A DNA stretch of 32,658 nt from an uncultured Anaerolineae bacterium (lineage in GTDB: Bacteria; Chloroflexota; Anaerolineae; Anaerolineales; Villigracilaceae): assembly GCA_903910795.1 (NCBI GenBank), contig CAIWAX010000047.1:1-32658 (forward strand), read 5' to 3'. Within the stretch, counting starts at the first letter, position 1, and the number at the start of each line of letters is the position of its first letter. This document shows positions 3,109 to 28,499 of this stretch, one piece after another. The notes under the pieces are model-generated. The model worked only from the letters and a program-made list of their open reading frames with translations, had not been told where the DNA came from and did not search any database. Position numbers and translations under genes: made by a program.

Positions 3109-3999
3109 ATGTCAAGCGAGCCGATGGAACAGGATATATACCGCCTGGCTGTAGAAAAAACAACCCGCCTTCTGAGTTACGTATTATTAACCCTCCTGGC
3201 GATTACCTTTCTCTTACCGCTTTACTGGATGTTTACAGGCTCGTTTAAGCTGCAATCTGTAACAATGGCCTTGCCGCCTGAAATCTTTCCAACAAACCCA
3301 ACCCTCGAAAACTGGACCCGGCTTTTCACTGGTCCCTGGCCAGTTTGGCGCTGGGTACTCAACAGCATGGCCGTCTCCCTTCTGACGGTTGTGCTGGTAC
3401 TGGCCATCAGTTCATTAACTGGTTATGGTTTTGGTAAGAAAAAGTTTCCTGGCTCAAATGCGCTCTTCATTATTTTGCTATCAACGATGTTCCTGCCAAA
3501 TCAGGTAATTCTTATCCCACTCTTTTTGTTGGTGCATGGCCTGCACATGACATCCACAACACTCGGCACTTATTTTGCCATGGCCATGCCGATGATTTCT
3601 TCGCCTTTTGGAATATTCCTTATCAAACAATTTTGCAGCACCATACCGGATGAATTATTGGATGCCGCGCGCATCGATGGCGCTTCCGAATGGGGTGTAT
3701 TTACACAGATCGTGCTACCTCTATTGAAACCCGCACTGGCCGCGCTCGCGATTTTCACCTTTAACCAGGCCTGGAATTATTTCATGTGGCATTTTGTAAT
3801 TGCCACGGATAAATCCCAGTACACCTTGCCGGTTGGCATTTCGATTATTTCACGCACGCCGGCGATCGGCAAAATGTTAACCGATATCGGGTTGACAATG
3901 GCCGGTGGATCTTTTGGGGCGTTTTTTATGATTGTATTGTTCGTCGCTTTCCAGCAGTATTTTATTAAGGGTATTACCTTTGGCGCTGTGAAGGAATAA
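3109..3999 (+). CDS. Sugar ABC transporter permease (MalG/UgpE-like)
   Basis: Second permease subunit, 296 aa, with a first membrane segment at YVLLTLLAITFLLPLYWMFTGSFK and five more. The EAA loop is DAARIDGASEWGVFTQIVLPLLKP. The lengths, the periplasmic loop after the first helix and the C-terminal helix (GAFFMIVLFVAFQQYFIKGI) are normal for the MalG group. AGGAG lies at 3092-3096, 12 bases before the ATG, which is slightly long spacing. The 87-base gap before it holds only a small ATTGCC/GGCAAT inverted repeat (3024-3037). It is followed after 14 bases by the symporter gene, so this operon carries two different import systems. Confidence 0.93.
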   Translation: MSSEPMEQDIYRLAVEKTTRLLSYVLLTLLAITFLLPLYWMFTGSFKLQSVTMALPPEIFPTNPTLENWTRLFTGPWPVWRWVLNSMAVSLLTVVLVLAISSLTGYGFGKKKFPGSNALFIILLSTMFLPNQVILIPLFLLVHGLHMTSTTLGTYFAMAMPMISSPFGIFLIKQFCSTIPDELLDAARIDGASEWGVFTQIVLPLLKPALAALAIFTFNQAWNYFMWHFVIATDKSQYTLPVGISIISRTPAIGKMLTDIGLTMAGGSFGAFFMIVLFVAFQQYFIKGITFGAVKE

Positions 4000-4013
4000 G
4001 GAAGCTCCGCATC

Positions 4014-5378
4014 ATGACCACACAAAAAGAAGGTTTATCGCTGCGAACCAAGCTGATGTATGGTGTTGGCGACGGGGGCATCAATCTTGCTGACACTGTT
4101 GTGGGTCTACTGTTCGCTATATTTCTGACGGATGTGGTTGGGCTTCGCCCCGGTCTCGCAGCGATAGTGATATTCATTGGGCGTACTTTTGATTACATCA
4201 ATGACCCAATCATTGGATATCTTTCGGATAGAACCCGCAGTCGCTGGGGGCGAAGACGGCCTTTTATCTTATTTGGGATGCTGCCATTTGCCCTGGTGTA
4301 CATGCTGCTGTGGTGGATTCCGCCATTCACATCTCAAATGAGCCTCGCAATCTTTTATGCCATTGCCTTCGTGCTCTATGACACCATGGCAACCGTTCTT
4401 TACATGCCATATTTTTCTCTGACGCCTGAATTGACCTCGGATTACGATGAGCGTACAAGCCTGACTACGTATAGGATGGTCTTTTCAACCCTGGGCGCAA
4501 TGATAGCTTTTGTTGTTCCTTTGGCCATCATTGGCACCATGAATCCGGCCAGCTCCGGACGAATTATGGCTGTCGGGGCGGGAGTGGCGATCCTCAGCGT
4601 TCTGCCCATGTTGTCTGTTTTCCTGGGCACACGCGAACGAACGGAATATCAGGATCAAAAACAACCTGGCATTAAAGAATCCATCCAGGCCGCCATCAAA
4701 AATAAACCATTTCTGTATGCCACAGGCATATTCCTGTTTGGTTGGATTGCCCTTGATATTACTCAGGCAACCTTGATGTATTTTCTTAAGTATCATATGC
4801 ACCTTGAACAAAATTACGACCTTGTTTTTGGATTGTTATTTATTGCCGCCCTGGTCTCACTACCCTTCTGGAACTGGCTCGCGGGCCGCTTGGACAAACA
4901 GAAAGCGATCATCATCGGAATGCTATTTCTGTCCGTTTCAATCATAGGCATGGGATTTATGCAACCCGAATGGGGGCTGACGCTTGTACTGGTATTCAGT
5001 TGCCTGATTGGTTTTGGTCTGGGTGCTGTGCAAGTGCTGACATGGGCCATGATTCCCGATACGGTCGAATGGGATGAATTAATGACCGGGCAGCGCCATG
5101 AAGGCATGTTCTACAGTCTGGTTCAAACTTTGCGAAAGATCGGTTCCTCTTTAGCGCTTCCTCTTGTGCTCTTAATGCTGGAATGGACAGGCTATGTTGC
5201 CAACGCGCCTGTCCAGCCATCCAACACAATACTTGGGATTCAGGCGCTGATCGGCCCCATACCGGCTGTATTCCTGTTGACAGGAATTATTCTTGCAAAA
5301 TATTATCCACTGAGTCGCAAAAATTTTGACCGGGTACGGGCTGAACTGGCGGAACGGCAAGCGGGTAAGGCGAGCTAG
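4014..5378 (+). CDS. GPH-family sugar:cation symporter (MFS)
   Basis: A 454-aa secondary transporter of the glycoside-pentoside-hexuronide:cation symporter family (MelB/XylP/YicJ group), with about 12 membrane segments. The family signature is clear near residues 53-80: GRTFDYINDPIIGYLSDRTR followed by SRWGRRRPF, including the conserved Asp residues and the RWGRRRP loop. A second family feature is DTVEWDELMTGQRHEG late in the protein. AAGGAA lies about 10 bases before the ATG. Its neighbours suggest import of the same or a related sugar or uronide as the ABC system, or export of a product. The substrate is unknown. Confidence 0.92.
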   Translation: MTTQKEGLSLRTKLMYGVGDGGINLADTVVGLLFAIFLTDVVGLRPGLAAIVIFIGRTFDYINDPIIGYLSDRTRSRWGRRRPFILFGMLPFALVYMLLWWIPPFTSQMSLAIFYAIAFVLYDTMATVLYMPYFSLTPELTSDYDERTSLTTYRMVFSTLGAMIAFVVPLAIIGTMNPASSGRIMAVGAGVAILSVLPMLSVFLGTRERTEYQDQKQPGIKESIQAAIKNKPFLYATGIFLFGWIALDITQATLMYFLKYHMHLEQNYDLVFGLLFIAALVSLPFWNWLAGRLDKQKAIIIGMLFLSVSIIGMGFMQPEWGLTLVLVFSCLIGFGLGAVQVLTWAMIPDTVEWDELMTGQRHEGMFYSLVQTLRKIGSSLALPLVLLMLEWTGYVANAPVQPSNTILGIQALIGPIPAVFLLTGIILAKYYPLSRKNFDRVRAELAERQAGKAS

Positions 5379-23816: not shown

Positions 23817-24263
23817 ATGTTTAAGCGAAACCCAGGCACCCAACAAGGCACATCCACCCCGCCTGTTATCCAGGCTGTTGAACGTATCACTTCCGTACTT
23901 GGCCCGGGCGTCATCTGGGAAGGCAAGCTCAGCGGCGCGGGTGGTGTGCGTATCGAAGGCACATTTGAAGGCCAGATTGGCTTGCGCGGTATGCTGGTGG
24001 TTGGGGAAAGCGGGCGGGTCACCTGTGAAAATATTCGCGCCAGTGCAGTGATTGTCGCCGGGGCAGTACGCGGGAATATCATCACCCAGAAGCTTGAAAT
24101 TCGCGCCACTGGCCGCGTGTGGGGCGATGTAGTGACCACCTCTTTTGTAACCGAAGATGGCGCTTTCCTGCGCGGGCAGATCCGCATGGAAGAACATGTC
24201 GATCTTGATCTGGGCACGGAATCTGGCGCTGAAACTCAAACACCTGATCAATCTCCGGCCTGA
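23817..24263 (+). CDS. Bactofilin (polymer-forming cytoskeletal protein)
   Basis: A 148-aa protein of the DUF583/bactofilin family. A flexible N-terminal tail (1-20) precedes a beta-helix made of short repeats with Gly and hydrophobic residues (SVLGPGVIWEGKLSGAGG, then RIEGTFEGQI and VAGAVRGNI). A polar C-terminal tail ends in PDQSPA. Such proteins self-assemble into filaments at the membrane without nucleotides and help in shape and envelope synthesis. It is the first gene of a plus-strand group and is followed after 11 bases by the ProRS-like gene, which is probably cotranscribed. Confidence 0.9.
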   Translation: MFKRNPGTQQGTSTPPVIQAVERITSVLGPGVIWEGKLSGAGGVRIEGTFEGQIGLRGMLVVGESGRVTCENIRASAVIVAGAVRGNIITQKLEIRATGRVWGDVVTTSFVTEDGAFLRGQIRMEEHVDLDLGTESGAETQTPDQSPA

Positions 24264-24274
24264 CCCACTATAAA

Positions 24275-25492
24275 ATGAAATATTCCGAACTCTCCATCCA
24301 AACCCAGCGCGCCGCCCCGGCCGATATTCGCACGGAAGGTTTTGCTTTTTTGTACCGTGCCGGTTACCTTTCACGCACAGGTGAACTGCTGCCGCTTGGC
24401 CAGCTTGCTGTCCAACAGCTTGAACAAGCCTGGCACAAACCAGAATTTGAAGCAAATGTGCAGAACTACTTGGATCGACTTGGAGTGCCAACCTCACACT
24501 CTGAAGATACCGGTGAATATTTTGCCCAATTCAAAAATGCCGGTGAGGAAATTTTGCTGTGCCCGGCCTGTGGATATGCCGCCCGTCATGAACTGGCCCG
24601 CTGCCACAGGCAGCCCTTCAGCCAGGAAGAACCCCAGCCAGTTGAAAAAGTACTGACCCCGGAATGCAGCACCATTGCACAACTGGCGCTCTTTTTGGGG
24701 ATTCCTCAGCAAAAAACCTGTAAAGCCCTTATGTTCACGCGTTTACAGGATGAAAAATTAATCTTCGTGGCTGTGCGCGGCGATTTACAAATGAGCGAAG
24801 CCAAACTCAAAACCCTGGTTGGTGAGGTACGCCTTGCCACACCACAGGAAATCAGCGCCTGCGGAGCGGTGCCCGGTTACGCATCGCCGATTGGTCTGCG
24901 AAACAGCTTGATCGTTGTGGATGAACTGGTGACTCTTTCCTCAAACCTGGTGGCGGGCGCCAATGAACATGGCTACCACCTGAAAAACACAAATTATCCG
25001 CGTGATTACGCTGCCAACCTGGTGGCAGATGTCTGCCTGGCGAACCCGACAGACAAATGTCTTGCCTGCGGTGCGCCGCTCGAATTACGCCTGGCTGAAC
25101 CCGTTTTTTCGGACGGCCAACTATTATTCGAGAAACTCCTCATGATCCTGGCAGAAATAGCTCATGACGAAAAAGGATTGGCGCTGCCAGCCGAGGCGGC
25201 ACCGTTTGCGATCTATTTGATGAATGTACCGGGTAAAACTCTCGATACCGCCAGCGCGGCTGAAAAACTCTATCATCTGCTGACCGATGCAGGGCTGTCC
25301 GTTCTGTTCGATGATCGCAATGAACGCGCGGGTATCAAATTCAACGATGCCGACCTGATTGGCTGCCCGGTACGCATTACTGTGGGCGAACGCGGCCTAC
25401 AGAACGGCCTGTTCGAAATCAAGCAGCGGCGTGATACTGAGATCCGCCAGATCGATCTTGACACCCTTATCGCTGAGCTGCGCCCAGTCTAG
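24275..25492 (+). CDS. Prolyl-tRNA synthetase-like protein lacking the catalytic motifs
   Basis: A 405-aa protein with clear ProRS ancestry but far below the usual 560-580 aa of bacterial-type ProRS. Residues 1-50 match the ProRS N-terminus (MKYSELSIQTQRAAPAD, YRAGYLSRTGELLPLG). About 130 residues with motif 2 are missing, so the protein runs on at YFAQFKNAGEEILLCPACGYAARHELA (82-108). The INS/YbaK-like editing domain is present (128-240) with Lys150 in the TCKALMF position. In place of motif 3 (GIGVSR) it has LLFEKLLMILAEI. The anticodon-binding domain (310-405) is intact (DDRNERAGIKFNDADLIG). It probably cannot aminoacylate. It may edit mischarged tRNA-Pro or have another tRNA role. Confidence 0.85.
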   Translation: MKYSELSIQTQRAAPADIRTEGFAFLYRAGYLSRTGELLPLGQLAVQQLEQAWHKPEFEANVQNYLDRLGVPTSHSEDTGEYFAQFKNAGEEILLCPACGYAARHELARCHRQPFSQEEPQPVEKVLTPECSTIAQLALFLGIPQQKTCKALMFTRLQDEKLIFVAVRGDLQMSEAKLKTLVGEVRLATPQEISACGAVPGYASPIGLRNSLIVVDELVTLSSNLVAGANEHGYHLKNTNYPRDYAANLVADVCLANPTDKCLACGAPLELRLAEPVFSDGQLLFEKLLMILAEIAHDEKGLALPAEAAPFAIYLMNVPGKTLDTASAAEKLYHLLTDAGLSVLFDDRNERAGIKFNDADLIGCPVRITVGERGLQNGLFEIKQRRDTEIRQIDLDTLIAELRPV

Positions 25493-25591: not shown

Positions 25592-26779
25592 ATGAAAATC
25601 CCCATGTCATCCCCCGATCTTACCGCCGCTGAACGCCAGGCGGTCATGGAAGTGATCAATACACCCATTCTCAGCCTGGGCCCGAGAGTAGTGGAATTTG
25701 AAAAAGCCTTCTGCGAATATACCGGCGCAAAGTACGCAGTAGCTGTCAATTCCGGCACCGCCGGGCTTCATCTGTGTGTGCGCGCGGCCGGCATCGGCGC
25801 TGGAGACCTGGTAATCACCACGCCCTTTTCCTTTGTCGCATCCACAAATGCCTTGCTGTTCGAGAATGCCATTCCGATTTTTGTGGATGTTGATCCCCTG
25901 ACTGGTAATATCAATCCAGAGCAGGCTGTACAGGCTGCCAGGGATCTTGCAGCGGGCGGAAAAGCAGCCAGAAAATGGCTGCCACGCAAGACTCCCAAAG
26001 CCTCCGGGAAAGCCAGCGTGGGAAAGCTCAAAGCCATCCTGCCGGTGGATGTGTTCGGCCAGCCAGCAGAGATGGATCCGCTCACTGACACAGCTCGTGA
26101 GCTGGGCCTGACTGTGATTGAAGATTCCTGCGAGGCGATTGGCGCGTTGTACAAAGGCCGGAAAGCCGGTACCTTCGGAGATTTCGGTATTTTTGCCTTT
26201 TATCCGAATAAACAAATGACTACCGGTGAAGGCGGGCTGGTGATTACAGATAATGAACGGGCGGCGAATTTTATGCGGGCCTTGCGAAACCAGGGACGCG
26301 CGCCGGGGGATACCTGGTTGTCACACACCTACCTGGGCTACAATTACCGTCTGGATGAAATGTCCGCCGCTCTCGGTCTGGCCCAAATGAAACGGCTGGA
26401 TGAAATGGTATCCAAGCGTGCAACAGTCGCCGGGTGGTACACGGAATGCCTGGCCGGAATCCCCGGTATCGAAGCTCCAAAGGTGGCGGCCTCCACTACA
26501 CGCATGTCGTGGTTTGTCTATGTCATTCGCCTGGCAAAGGAATTGGAGCGCGGCGACCTGGCTAAACGACTGGAAGCCCGTGGTGTACCTGTACGGCCTT
26601 ACTTTTTACCTATTCATCTGCAGCCTTATATGCAGGAACGTTTTGGGTACGAAGCGGGCGATTTCCCAATCACTGAGGATCTTGGAGAACGCGGTGTGGC
26701 TGTTCCGTTCAGCGGTGTGATGACTCGTGAACAGGTTGAATACGTGTGTGATGCACTGCGGCAGGAAACAAGCCGGTAA
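25592..26779 (+). CDS. DegT/DnrJ/EryC1 sugar aminotransferase with a Lys-rich insert
   Basis: A 395-aa PLP-dependent aminotransferase of the perosamine/ArnB-like class. The aldimine Lys207 lies in FAFYPNKQMTTGEGG, the PLP-binding Asp178 in VIEDSCEAIGA, and NSGTAGLHL holds the phosphate. Between residues 115 and 147 it carries an extra stretch rich in Lys and Ala that is absent from typical members. It converts a keto-sugar nucleotide to an amino sugar. It is not adjacent to the nonulosonate cluster, although it could provide aminosugars for the same surface polymer. No good Shine-Dalgarno beyond AGGAAA before ATG 25592. Confidence 0.88.
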   Translation: MKIPMSSPDLTAAERQAVMEVINTPILSLGPRVVEFEKAFCEYTGAKYAVAVNSGTAGLHLCVRAAGIGAGDLVITTPFSFVASTNALLFENAIPIFVDVDPLTGNINPEQAVQAARDLAAGGKAARKWLPRKTPKASGKASVGKLKAILPVDVFGQPAEMDPLTDTARELGLTVIEDSCEAIGALYKGRKAGTFGDFGIFAFYPNKQMTTGEGGLVITDNERAANFMRALRNQGRAPGDTWLSHTYLGYNYRLDEMSAALGLAQMKRLDEMVSKRATVAGWYTECLAGIPGIEAPKVAASTTRMSWFVYVIRLAKELERGDLAKRLEARGVPVRPYFLPIHLQPYMQERFGYEAGDFPITEDLGERGVAVPFSGVMTREQVEYVCDALRQETSR

Positions 26780-26781
26780 TA

Positions 26782-26802
26782 ATGGAAAGTACCCATAAGT
26801 TC
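26782..26802 (+). repeat. GGAAAGTACCCA repeat copy inside a start region
   Basis: These 21 bases match the copy at 17296-17316 (inverted) with one difference. The copy forms the first seven codons of the PH-domain gene. Confidence 0.6.
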
Positions 26803-27705
26803 AGTAACGAATTTCCGCCTGCCCGCCAGCGCGGCATGGTGATCCACACCGTTCTGGCCGTCGTATTCAGCCTGGTCAGTGCGTTTTCGCTCACAATTGT
26901 TCTGCAAACCCCGGTTGGGTTGTATTTCAGCCTGTACGTGTTACTTTTTATCATTGCGGCTATCCAGGTGCCTATTTTCGGTTACCGGGTATATGCCTTG
27001 CTGCGCGCCAATTATTTTCTTGACCGCAATACCCTGCGGCTGGTTTGGGGCCTGCGGGCCGAAGATATCCCTGTCACGGATGTGGAGTGGATCCGGCCAG
27101 CCGCTGGATTAACAACGCCGGTCAACCTGCCGTGGTTCCGTCTGCCCGGTGGAATTCTGGGAGTTACCCGCCAGCGCGATATTGGCAGGATTGAGTTCAT
27201 GGCATCAGATGCACAGAACTTGATCCTGGTGGCAACCGCGCGGCAGGTGTATGGTATTTCACCCGAAGATCCAGCCGCGTTTCTGGCAGCTTTCCAAAAA
27301 ACAATTGAAATGGGCAGCCTGCAACCAACTCAGGGCAGCTCGCAATATCCATCCTTTGTGGTTGTCCGGGCCTGGGAAAGCTCATTGGTACGCTTTCTAT
27401 GGATGGCAGGCGCCTTTCTGAATGTAGGTCTGCTGATTTGGGTAACCGTACTGATCCCATCCCTGACGCGGATTACGCTGGGGTTTGGGGTCACAGGTGC
27501 GCCTCTGGATCCGGTAGCCGGCGCACAGCTCATTCTGCTGCCGCTCCTGAGCGCGTTCCTGTTTGTGATAGGCCTGATTACCGGCCTATTTTTCTTTCGC
27601 AAACCCGAATTACGTGTTCTGGCGATTGCCTTATGGACTTCAGGCGCCTTCTCAGGCTTATTTTTCCTCGCGGCTGTCTTTTTCATCCTGAATACCCCCA
27701 TCTGA
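26782..27705 (+). CDS. Membrane protein with bacterial PH domain
   Basis: A 307-aa protein. Two membrane segments (about 20-45 and 46-75) are followed by a soluble PH-like beta domain (about 78-180: FLDRNTLRLVWGLRAEDIPV, then ILGVTRQ and LILVATARQVYGISPEDPAAF). Three more membrane segments end the protein. It resembles bacterial PH (bPH) membrane proteins of unknown role. The ATG is 2 bases after the DegT stop and its first seven codons are a copy of the dispersed GGAAAGTACCCA motif. A start further in, such as M19 (MVIHTVL), is possible. It overlaps the next gene by one base. Confidence 0.75.
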   Translation: MESTHKFSNEFPPARQRGMVIHTVLAVVFSLVSAFSLTIVLQTPVGLYFSLYVLLFIIAAIQVPIFGYRVYALLRANYFLDRNTLRLVWGLRAEDIPVTDVEWIRPAAGLTTPVNLPWFRLPGGILGVTRQRDIGRIEFMASDAQNLILVATARQVYGISPEDPAAFLAAFQKTIEMGSLQPTQGSSQYPSFVVVRAWESSLVRFLWMAGAFLNVGLLIWVTVLIPSLTRITLGFGVTGAPLDPVAGAQLILLPLLSAFLFVIGLITGLFFFRKPELRVLAIALWTSGAFSGLFFLAAVFFILNTPI

Positions 27706-28499
27706 TGATATTCCAATTCTTAACGGGTCTGGTTTGTGCAGCAGTAGTGGGGATGGGCGCTTATCGTGCCCGCAGTCTGAGCCGTTCAGGGGCACTGGCT
27801 GCCATCCTGGTTGGGACGGTGGTATTTGGGATTGGCGGTTGGCAGTGGGCCGTCCTGCTGCTGGCCTTTTTTATTTCATCCAGCGCGCTGACCCGCGCTT
27901 TCAAAAACCGCAAACGCGGATTGAATGAGAAATTTTCAAAAGGCGGTCAACGTGATGCCGGTCAGGTATTTGGCAACGGCGGACTGGCTACGTTATTTGC
28001 CGGCTTGCATTATTTCTATCCAACCTCAGCATGGGTCTGGCTGGCCTTCGCCGCTTCATTAGCAGCCGTTAACGCAGATACCTGGTCCACTGAACTGGGC
28101 GTCCTGAATCCGCATCCCCCGCGCATGATCACCAACCCCGGTAGAATTGTCGAGAAAGGAACCTCTGGTGGGGTGTCCCTGATGGGAACATTGGCGGCGC
28201 TGGCAGGTTCGGCGCTGATTGGAGCGCTGGCAGTGCTTTTTCCGCCCATGTCTACTCCCTGGCTGGCGGGTGTTTTGGTGACGCTGGCCGGGTTTCTTGG
28301 GGCCTTGTTTGACTCGCTGCTAGGCGCAACCATCCAGGCCATTTATCATTGTTCCACCTGCGATAAAGAAACCGAACGGCATCCTTTGCATACCTGTGGC
28401 ACACCCACAGTTCGCATACGCGGTTGGGCCTGGCTGAACAACGATCTCGTCAACCTGGGCTGCGCAGTCTTCGCGGTCATATTTGTGCTTATCGTTTAA
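27705..28499 (+). CDS. DUF92 membrane protein (TMEM19/VTE6-like)
   Basis: A 264-aa polytopic membrane protein of the DUF92 family. The family core is clear: NADTWSTELGVL, then NPGRIVEKGTSGGVSLMG, followed by hydrophobic helices and a cytosolic CSTCDKETERHPLHTCG segment with three Cys. Plant VTE6 of this family is a phytyl-phosphate kinase, so prenyl-phosphate phosphorylation is a reasonable guess here. The start ATG overlaps the previous stop (TGATG), and this start fits the family N-terminus; the longer upstream reading is in the shadow of the PH gene. It is last before a strong terminator. Confidence 0.88.
   Translation: MIFQFLTGLVCAAVVGMGAYRARSLSRSGALAAILVGTVVFGIGGWQWAVLLLAFFISSSALTRAFKNRKRGLNEKFSKGGQRDAGQVFGNGGLATLFAGLHYFYPTSAWVWLAFAASLAAVNADTWSTELGVLNPHPPRMITNPGRIVEKGTSGGVSLMGTLAALAGSALIGALAVLFPPMSTPWLAGVLVTLAGFLGALFDSLLGATIQAIYHCSTCDKETERHPLHTCGTPTVRIRGWAWLNNDLVNLGCAVFAVIFVLIV

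Follow-up and report, generated by a model that had tools for sequence, protein, structure and literature searches.

What becomes of a prolyl-tRNA synthetase (ProRS) once the part that charges tRNA has been lost? This question is raised by a 405-amino-acid open reading frame (ORF) in the DNA analyzed here, a stretch of 32,658 nucleotides that we refer to in its entirety as the window. The features of the ORF are listed below by position, strand, and basis of assignment.

24275..25492 (+): reduced ProRS paralogue, "ProRS-ed", 405 aa (ORF call, Pfam, NCBIfam, alignment, AlphaFold2)
24275..24409 (+): ProRS N-terminal remnant, residues 1–45, conserved (aligns with the E. coli ProRS N-terminus)
24560..24571 (+): CPAC (C96, C99), first half of a putative zinc ribbon that flanks the INS domain (E. 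coli positions 224/227)
24656..24994 (+): INS, or YbaK-type, editing domain, Pfam tRNA_edit, residues 128–240 (profile match and residue mapping)
25058..25069 (+): CLAC (C262, C265), second half of the putative zinc ribbon (E. coli positions 396/399)
25127..25159 (+): site of class II motif 3, without the catalytic Arg (K287; alignment with E. coli ProRS)
25241..25483 (+): anticodon-binding domain (ABD), Pfam HGTP_anticodon, residues 323–403 (profile match)

Domain Architecture of the Reduced ProRS

Pfam searches of the 405-aa ORF returned tRNA_edit (PF04073, 72.4 bits, residues 128–240) and HGTP_anticodon (65 bits, residues 323–403), and no match to the class II core (tRNA-synt_2b) with E values allowed up to 1. 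Alignment with E. faecalis ProRS (2J3L) localizes what is missing. Query residues 59 and 77 correspond to positions 62 and 205, indicating that approximately 128 residues containing motifs 1 and 2 are gone, and query residues 247 and 286 correspond to positions 378 and 446, indicating the loss of approximately 29 more, including motif 3, between INS and the ABD. The loss from the aminoacylation core amounts to approximately 155 residues. An original prediction, made from the DNA letters alone, had placed the first gap at about 130 residues with motif 2 and had described motif 3 as replaced; the alignments bear out both points and add motif 1 to the missing parts. Where motif 3 should be, the protein reads LLFEKLLM, with K287 aligned to E. 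coli R450, and the motif 2 residues R140 and R144 (E. coli numbering) are absent because the region that would hold them is deleted. The N-terminal ~45 residues of ProRS are retained, leaving a shrunken core scaffold, and a CxxC pair is found on each side of INS.

The NCBIfam ProRS models match the protein only piecewise, with scores of 232 bits against a cut-off of 558 and 152.8 bits against a cut-off of 306.7. Scoring below the NCBIfam equivalog cut-off and having neither the motif 2 nor the motif 3 catalytic arginines, it does not qualify as a functional bacterial ProRS (proS_fam_II). Its PF04073 match and K150, the strictly conserved Lys of the YbaK/INS fold, place it in the INS superfamily. 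An AlphaFold2 model computed with 41 homologues has a mean pLDDT of 95.5 and a pTM of 0.86, and its best match in the PDB is E. faecalis ProRS 2J3L (VIA Z 29.5, rmsd 4.1, 400 residues; Foldseek was also run). The model suggests that INS and the ABD hold a defined arrangement around the shrunken core.

Conservation, Distribution, and Selection

By residue mapping, K150, D216, and H235 of the reduced ProRS are the counterparts of E. coli K279, D350, and H369. All aligned sequences that extend over the positions of K279, D350, N364, and H369 have their equivalents, whether the protein is reduced or not. I134 and L137 (I263 and L266 of the E. coli INS domain) are invariant in 25 reduced members, as are C96, C99, and C262, with C265 nearly so. 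In the ABD, D346, R348, G353, K355, F356, D360, L361, and G363 are invariant in the reduced-member alignment, and nearly all members reaching that far keep the signature DDRxERxGxKFxDADLxG with few departures. INS with its Lys and the ABD are thus as well preserved as had been proposed. Mean pairwise identity per column is 0.61–0.63 for the N-terminal remnant (itself at 0.61), INS, and the ABD alike, and 0.28–0.30 for the two linkers left at the sites of core loss.

Repurposing of synthetase paralogues is common, and a retained ABD could in principle serve a protein that binds tRNA-Pro in a regulatory or scaffolding role while its editing site lies disused. The AlphaFold2 model does also resemble the PolG2 accessory subunit. 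This explanation appears highly improbable, however, as it is the editing residues that are invariant, not the tRNA-binding residues alone, and INS is as constrained as the ABD.

The reduced form is widespread. A search of 60 relatives recovered the same architecture at 46–64% identity in many genera of the family, which belongs to the Anaerolineales (Chloroflexota). Strong matches were obtained in 83 of 120 family genomes, distributed over 19 of the family's 26 genera and including the single-contig assemblies G018, G138, and G143; approximately 80 of these matches are the ~400-aa form without internal stops. A scan of named genomes yielded 36 records of the reduced form (some genomes are repeated), all labeled as Anaerolineales, Anaerolineae, Anaerolinea, or Chloroflexi/Chloroflexota. 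For the closest pairs, pairwise omega by the Nei–Gojobori method is 0.08–0.21, ratios that are rough given that several dS values are large. The reduced gene is under purifying selection, as the original prediction had argued from its continuous reading frame.

A frame change interrupts two of the reduced copies, L031:1265–2475 (−) in G019 and L124:4932–6199 (+), reflecting either assembly errors or early decay. In G017, a stray ABD-like frame of ~100 codons (L017:3527–3829 (+), 53 bits) follows the reduced gene at a distance of ~0.8 kb and is perhaps a decaying partial duplication. The split frames in two relatives are what a pseudogene or an assembly artefact of a normal proS would look like, and a sequence error could have been exposed by a longer homologue in relatives. 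Close relatives instead carry the same short protein and no longer homologue. Together with the uninterrupted frames in about 80 of 120 genomes, single-contig assemblies among them, and the low omega values, this led us to reject the pseudogene or error explanation as almost certainly wrong.

A Second, Archaeal-Type ProRS

Archaeal-type ProRSs are a class without an INS domain. We located one in the window's own genome (L035, proS_fam_I, at G000:C252), which is complete, scores 569 bits (cut-off 437), and has motifs 2 and 3 intact as judged by eye. The search for a complete proS elsewhere in the genome, suggested along with the original prediction, therefore gave a clear positive. Searches for an INS domain at this locus gave no match.

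An archaeal-type ProRS was found in every family genome tested. It accompanies 35 of 35 tested minimal reduced copies and all 15 eroded non-minimal copies, hence 50 of 50 degenerate copies together, compared with intact-motif bacterial-type copies that occur both with it (26) and without it (20). For the eroded non-minimal copies, the difference gives a Fisher p of 0.001 with kinship ignored; the tree yields just 1–3 independent pairs, too few for the ProRS association on its own to reach phylogenetic significance. These counts leave out L154/G096, a record of only 1.3 Mb. G053 was considered as an exception, an eroded copy without an archaeal-type ProRS, and was rejected as such, since the C-terminus of its archaeal-type ProRS ends at a contig edge. 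In four loci (L036–L039, from G027, G024, G013, and G016), archaeal-type and bacterial-type proS genes lie within ~4 kb of each other, and in G016 the frame of the bacterial-type proS is broken in two.

Gene Neighborhood and Origin

The genes flanking the reduced ProRS in the window are as follows.

23817..24263 (+): bactofilin gene, probable operon partner, 11 nt upstream of the reduced ProRS (Pfam)
25592..26779 (+): DegT/DnrJ/EryC1 aminotransferase, downstream (Pfam)
26782..28499 (+): 307-aa membrane protein (26782–27705) and VTE6-like gene (within 27399–28499) (conserved neighborhood)

A bactofilin gene is directly upstream in 33 of the 34 reduced loci with enough upstream sequence, the exception being L096, and the DegT aminotransferase, followed by the 307-aa membrane protein and the VTE6-like gene, is downstream in many. 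The claim that the reduced gene is cotranscribed with the bactofilin holds as far as adjacency is concerned, with 11 nt between the genes and the arrangement conserved; a shared transcript is what conserved adjacency, and only that, would suggest.

The same gene order surrounds full-length proS in L127, L128, L130, and L133, where the DegT aminotransferase again lies beside it, as well as the eroded copy in L137. Because of this synteny with full-length proS in sister lineages, the reduced gene is most simply explained as the resident proS cut down in place. In L127, a 249-aa ORF (3739–4488 (+)) is present between the bactofilin and full-length proS genes, and ORFs of similar size precede proS in L137, L141, and L166; in the window, no such ORF separates the bactofilin gene from the reduced one.

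The neighborhood also bears on how the protein would work. Bactofilin is a polymer-forming protein and YbaK acts in a ternary complex with ProRS (PMC3973320), so that the conserved adjacency could point to an editing subunit held in a complex with the archaeal-type ProRS or on a bactofilin scaffold, rather than a free factor. We regard this as very unlikely. The reduced protein has its own ABD, with which no other protein would be needed for tRNA choice, the archaeal-type proS is located elsewhere in the window's genome, and sister lineages with full-length proS already have a bactofilin gene close by, meaning that the adjacency may simply be inherited.

We found longer copies with damaged motifs (L137, L141, L163, and L148) and shortened copies (L032, L034, L047, L048, and L050–L053), a graded series whose members, judged by their sequences, look like intermediates. 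In a quick tree, the minimal forms make up one strongly supported clade, apart from a nested 451-aa copy (L030), and most of the shortened copies group with this clade with weak support. The tree test does not reject one origin for all of the catalytic losses (p-AU 0.336), and we therefore make no claim of several.

Proposed Function and Mechanism

Overall, it is likely that the reduced ProRS is a trans-editing tRNA-Pro deacylase derived by in-place reduction of a bacterial-type ProRS; we infer its activity, its Ala substrate, and its selection of tRNA by the anticodon from the features described above. Earlier work on ProRS shows that INS cannot tell tRNAs apart unaided: specificity comes from the ABD and G35/G36, and the acceptor stem is not needed (PMC3973320). 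Since INS leaves the selection of tRNA to the ABD, a protein consisting of INS and an ABD is what anticodon-guided trans-editing would need. The E. coli ProRS variant K279A, altered at the counterpart of K150, is editing-defective. More generally, mutation of the conserved Lys impairs all INS-superfamily members tested (PMC10164551).

In the mechanism that we propose, the archaeal-type ProRS would charge tRNA-Pro and, having no INS domain, would sometimes let go Ala-tRNA-Pro. This product would be gripped by the ABD of the reduced protein, which would read the anticodon nucleotides G35/G36. The CCA end would then be placed in the INS pocket, lined by Lys150, Asp216, and His235, and the ester hydrolyzed. 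What is left of the old core, at the N-terminus and in the linkers, might act as a rigid spacer between INS and the ABD.

Other Probable tRNA-Pro Editors in the Genome

The window's genome (G000) additionally encodes a ProXp-ala-like protein (L003:1426–1923), which matches 5VXB, a YbaK-like protein (L002:1306–1905), and a ProXp-x-like protein (L001:1393–1893). Judging from these genes, tRNA-Pro proofreading looks layered in the window's genus. We detected ProXp-ala-like genes mainly in G000 and several other genomes of its genus, and also in G023 and G034; in most family members outside the genus, none was found. Because of this distribution, editing of Ala-tRNA-Pro may fall mainly to the reduced protein in most of the family, and the protein may be partly redundant in the window's genus. 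Neither the reduced gene nor a ProXp-ala gene was found in G011 or G025, indicating that the function is not indispensable.

With a ProXp-ala-like protein alongside it in this genus, the reduced ProRS could instead have changed its substrate on tRNA-Pro, acting in trans on Cys, Ser, 2-aminobutyrate, or a non-protein amino acid while Ala is handled elsewhere. INS homologues with differing substrates do exist (PMC11295145). The equivalents of E. coli I263, L266, K279, and H369 are invariant among the reduced proteins, however, and the YbaK-like and ProXp-x-like genes already present in the genome would take care of Cys and 2-aminobutyrate. Outside the genus, moreover, most family members are missing the ProXp-ala to which Ala would have been left. 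A changed substrate is thus unlikely, and we favor Ala-tRNA-Pro as the target of the reduced ProRS.

Comparison with Known Editing Systems

The reduced ProRS is homologous over its whole length to bacterial ProRSs with INS (proS_fam_II; E. coli and E. faecalis 2J3L), sharing with them the same INS domain, ABD, and gene neighborhood, but it lacks motifs 1–3. In its organization, it resembles archaeal ThrRS-ed, a core-less synthetase paralogue with an editing domain and an ABD that exists beside an editing-less catalytic synthetase (PMC11295145, PMC7373986). ThrRS-ed is found in some archaea (crenarchaeal) as an editing domain plus ABD without the catalytic core (PMC11295145). The reduced ProRS has the same type of architecture, editing domain and ABD with the core lost, and L035 provides a separate catalytic synthetase without an editing domain in the same genome. 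Unlike ThrRS-ed, it would be directed to tRNA-Pro, and its editing fold is INS rather than DTD-like. Beyond the shared ABD, it is not related to ThrRS-ed by descent; the one match to PRK14938, of 17.7 bits, lies in the ABD. The original prediction, in which this type was one not seen described before, must therefore be narrowed: ThrRS-ed is a precedent for an editing domain and ABD without a catalytic core, and what stands is that the open-access literature searched yielded no ProRS-derived counterpart. That literature likewise yielded no described ProRS-ed, no paper on Chloroflexi ProRS, no link between bactofilin and a synthetase, and nothing of use on the residues of the INS pocket.

Like ProXp-ala, YbaK, ProXp-x, and ProXp-ST1/2, the reduced ProRS has the INS/YbaK fold and the conserved Lys, and from its sequence we predict that it also acts in trans. 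Published INS-superfamily trans-editors are described as single-domain proteins (PMC11295145), and ProXp-ala recognizes its tRNA by G72/A73 in the acceptor stem (PMC3973320, PMC11295145). Unlike ProXp-ala, the reduced ProRS is multi-domain, with an ABD, and is without R144, the motif-2 loop residue of ProRS reported to contact G72 (PMC10164551). In the one tRNA that we looked at, tRNA-Pro(UGG), C1:G72 and A73 are present; most tRNA pattern matches were not tRNAs. Plant ProXp-ala is similar in that an INS-type editor has gained an added domain, which helps tRNA binding, but that domain is plant-specific and is not described as a synthetase ABD (PMC9425024). Because the published INS-superfamily trans-editors are single-domain, the reduced ProRS looks new among them.

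We consider it likely that "ProRS-ed" represents a new class of trans-editor, one that was reduced in place, would select mischarged tRNA-Pro by its anticodon, and evolved after an editing-less archaeal-type ProRS took over charging, with living members of the order recording the graded reduction. Such a history would illustrate that an editing function can outlive synthetase replacement: two ProRSs exist side by side, and as one does the charging, the other wears away until its proofreading part is left. The coupling between anticodon reading and the remote editing site of ProRS is described as an open question (PMC3973320), and a natural protein made essentially of INS and an ABD allows a direct test. 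The reduced protein scores under the cut-offs of all ProRS families searched and is easily mistaken for a fragmentary proline–tRNA ligase or a YbaK-like protein.

Finally, the eroded copy at L148:4449–6083 (+), a ProRS without motifs 2 and 3, comes from a metagenome-assembled genome labeled Caldithrix sp. whose archaeal-type ProRS is only 54% identical to that of the window's genome. This locus could reflect either reduction outside Chloroflexota or a mis-binned contig.
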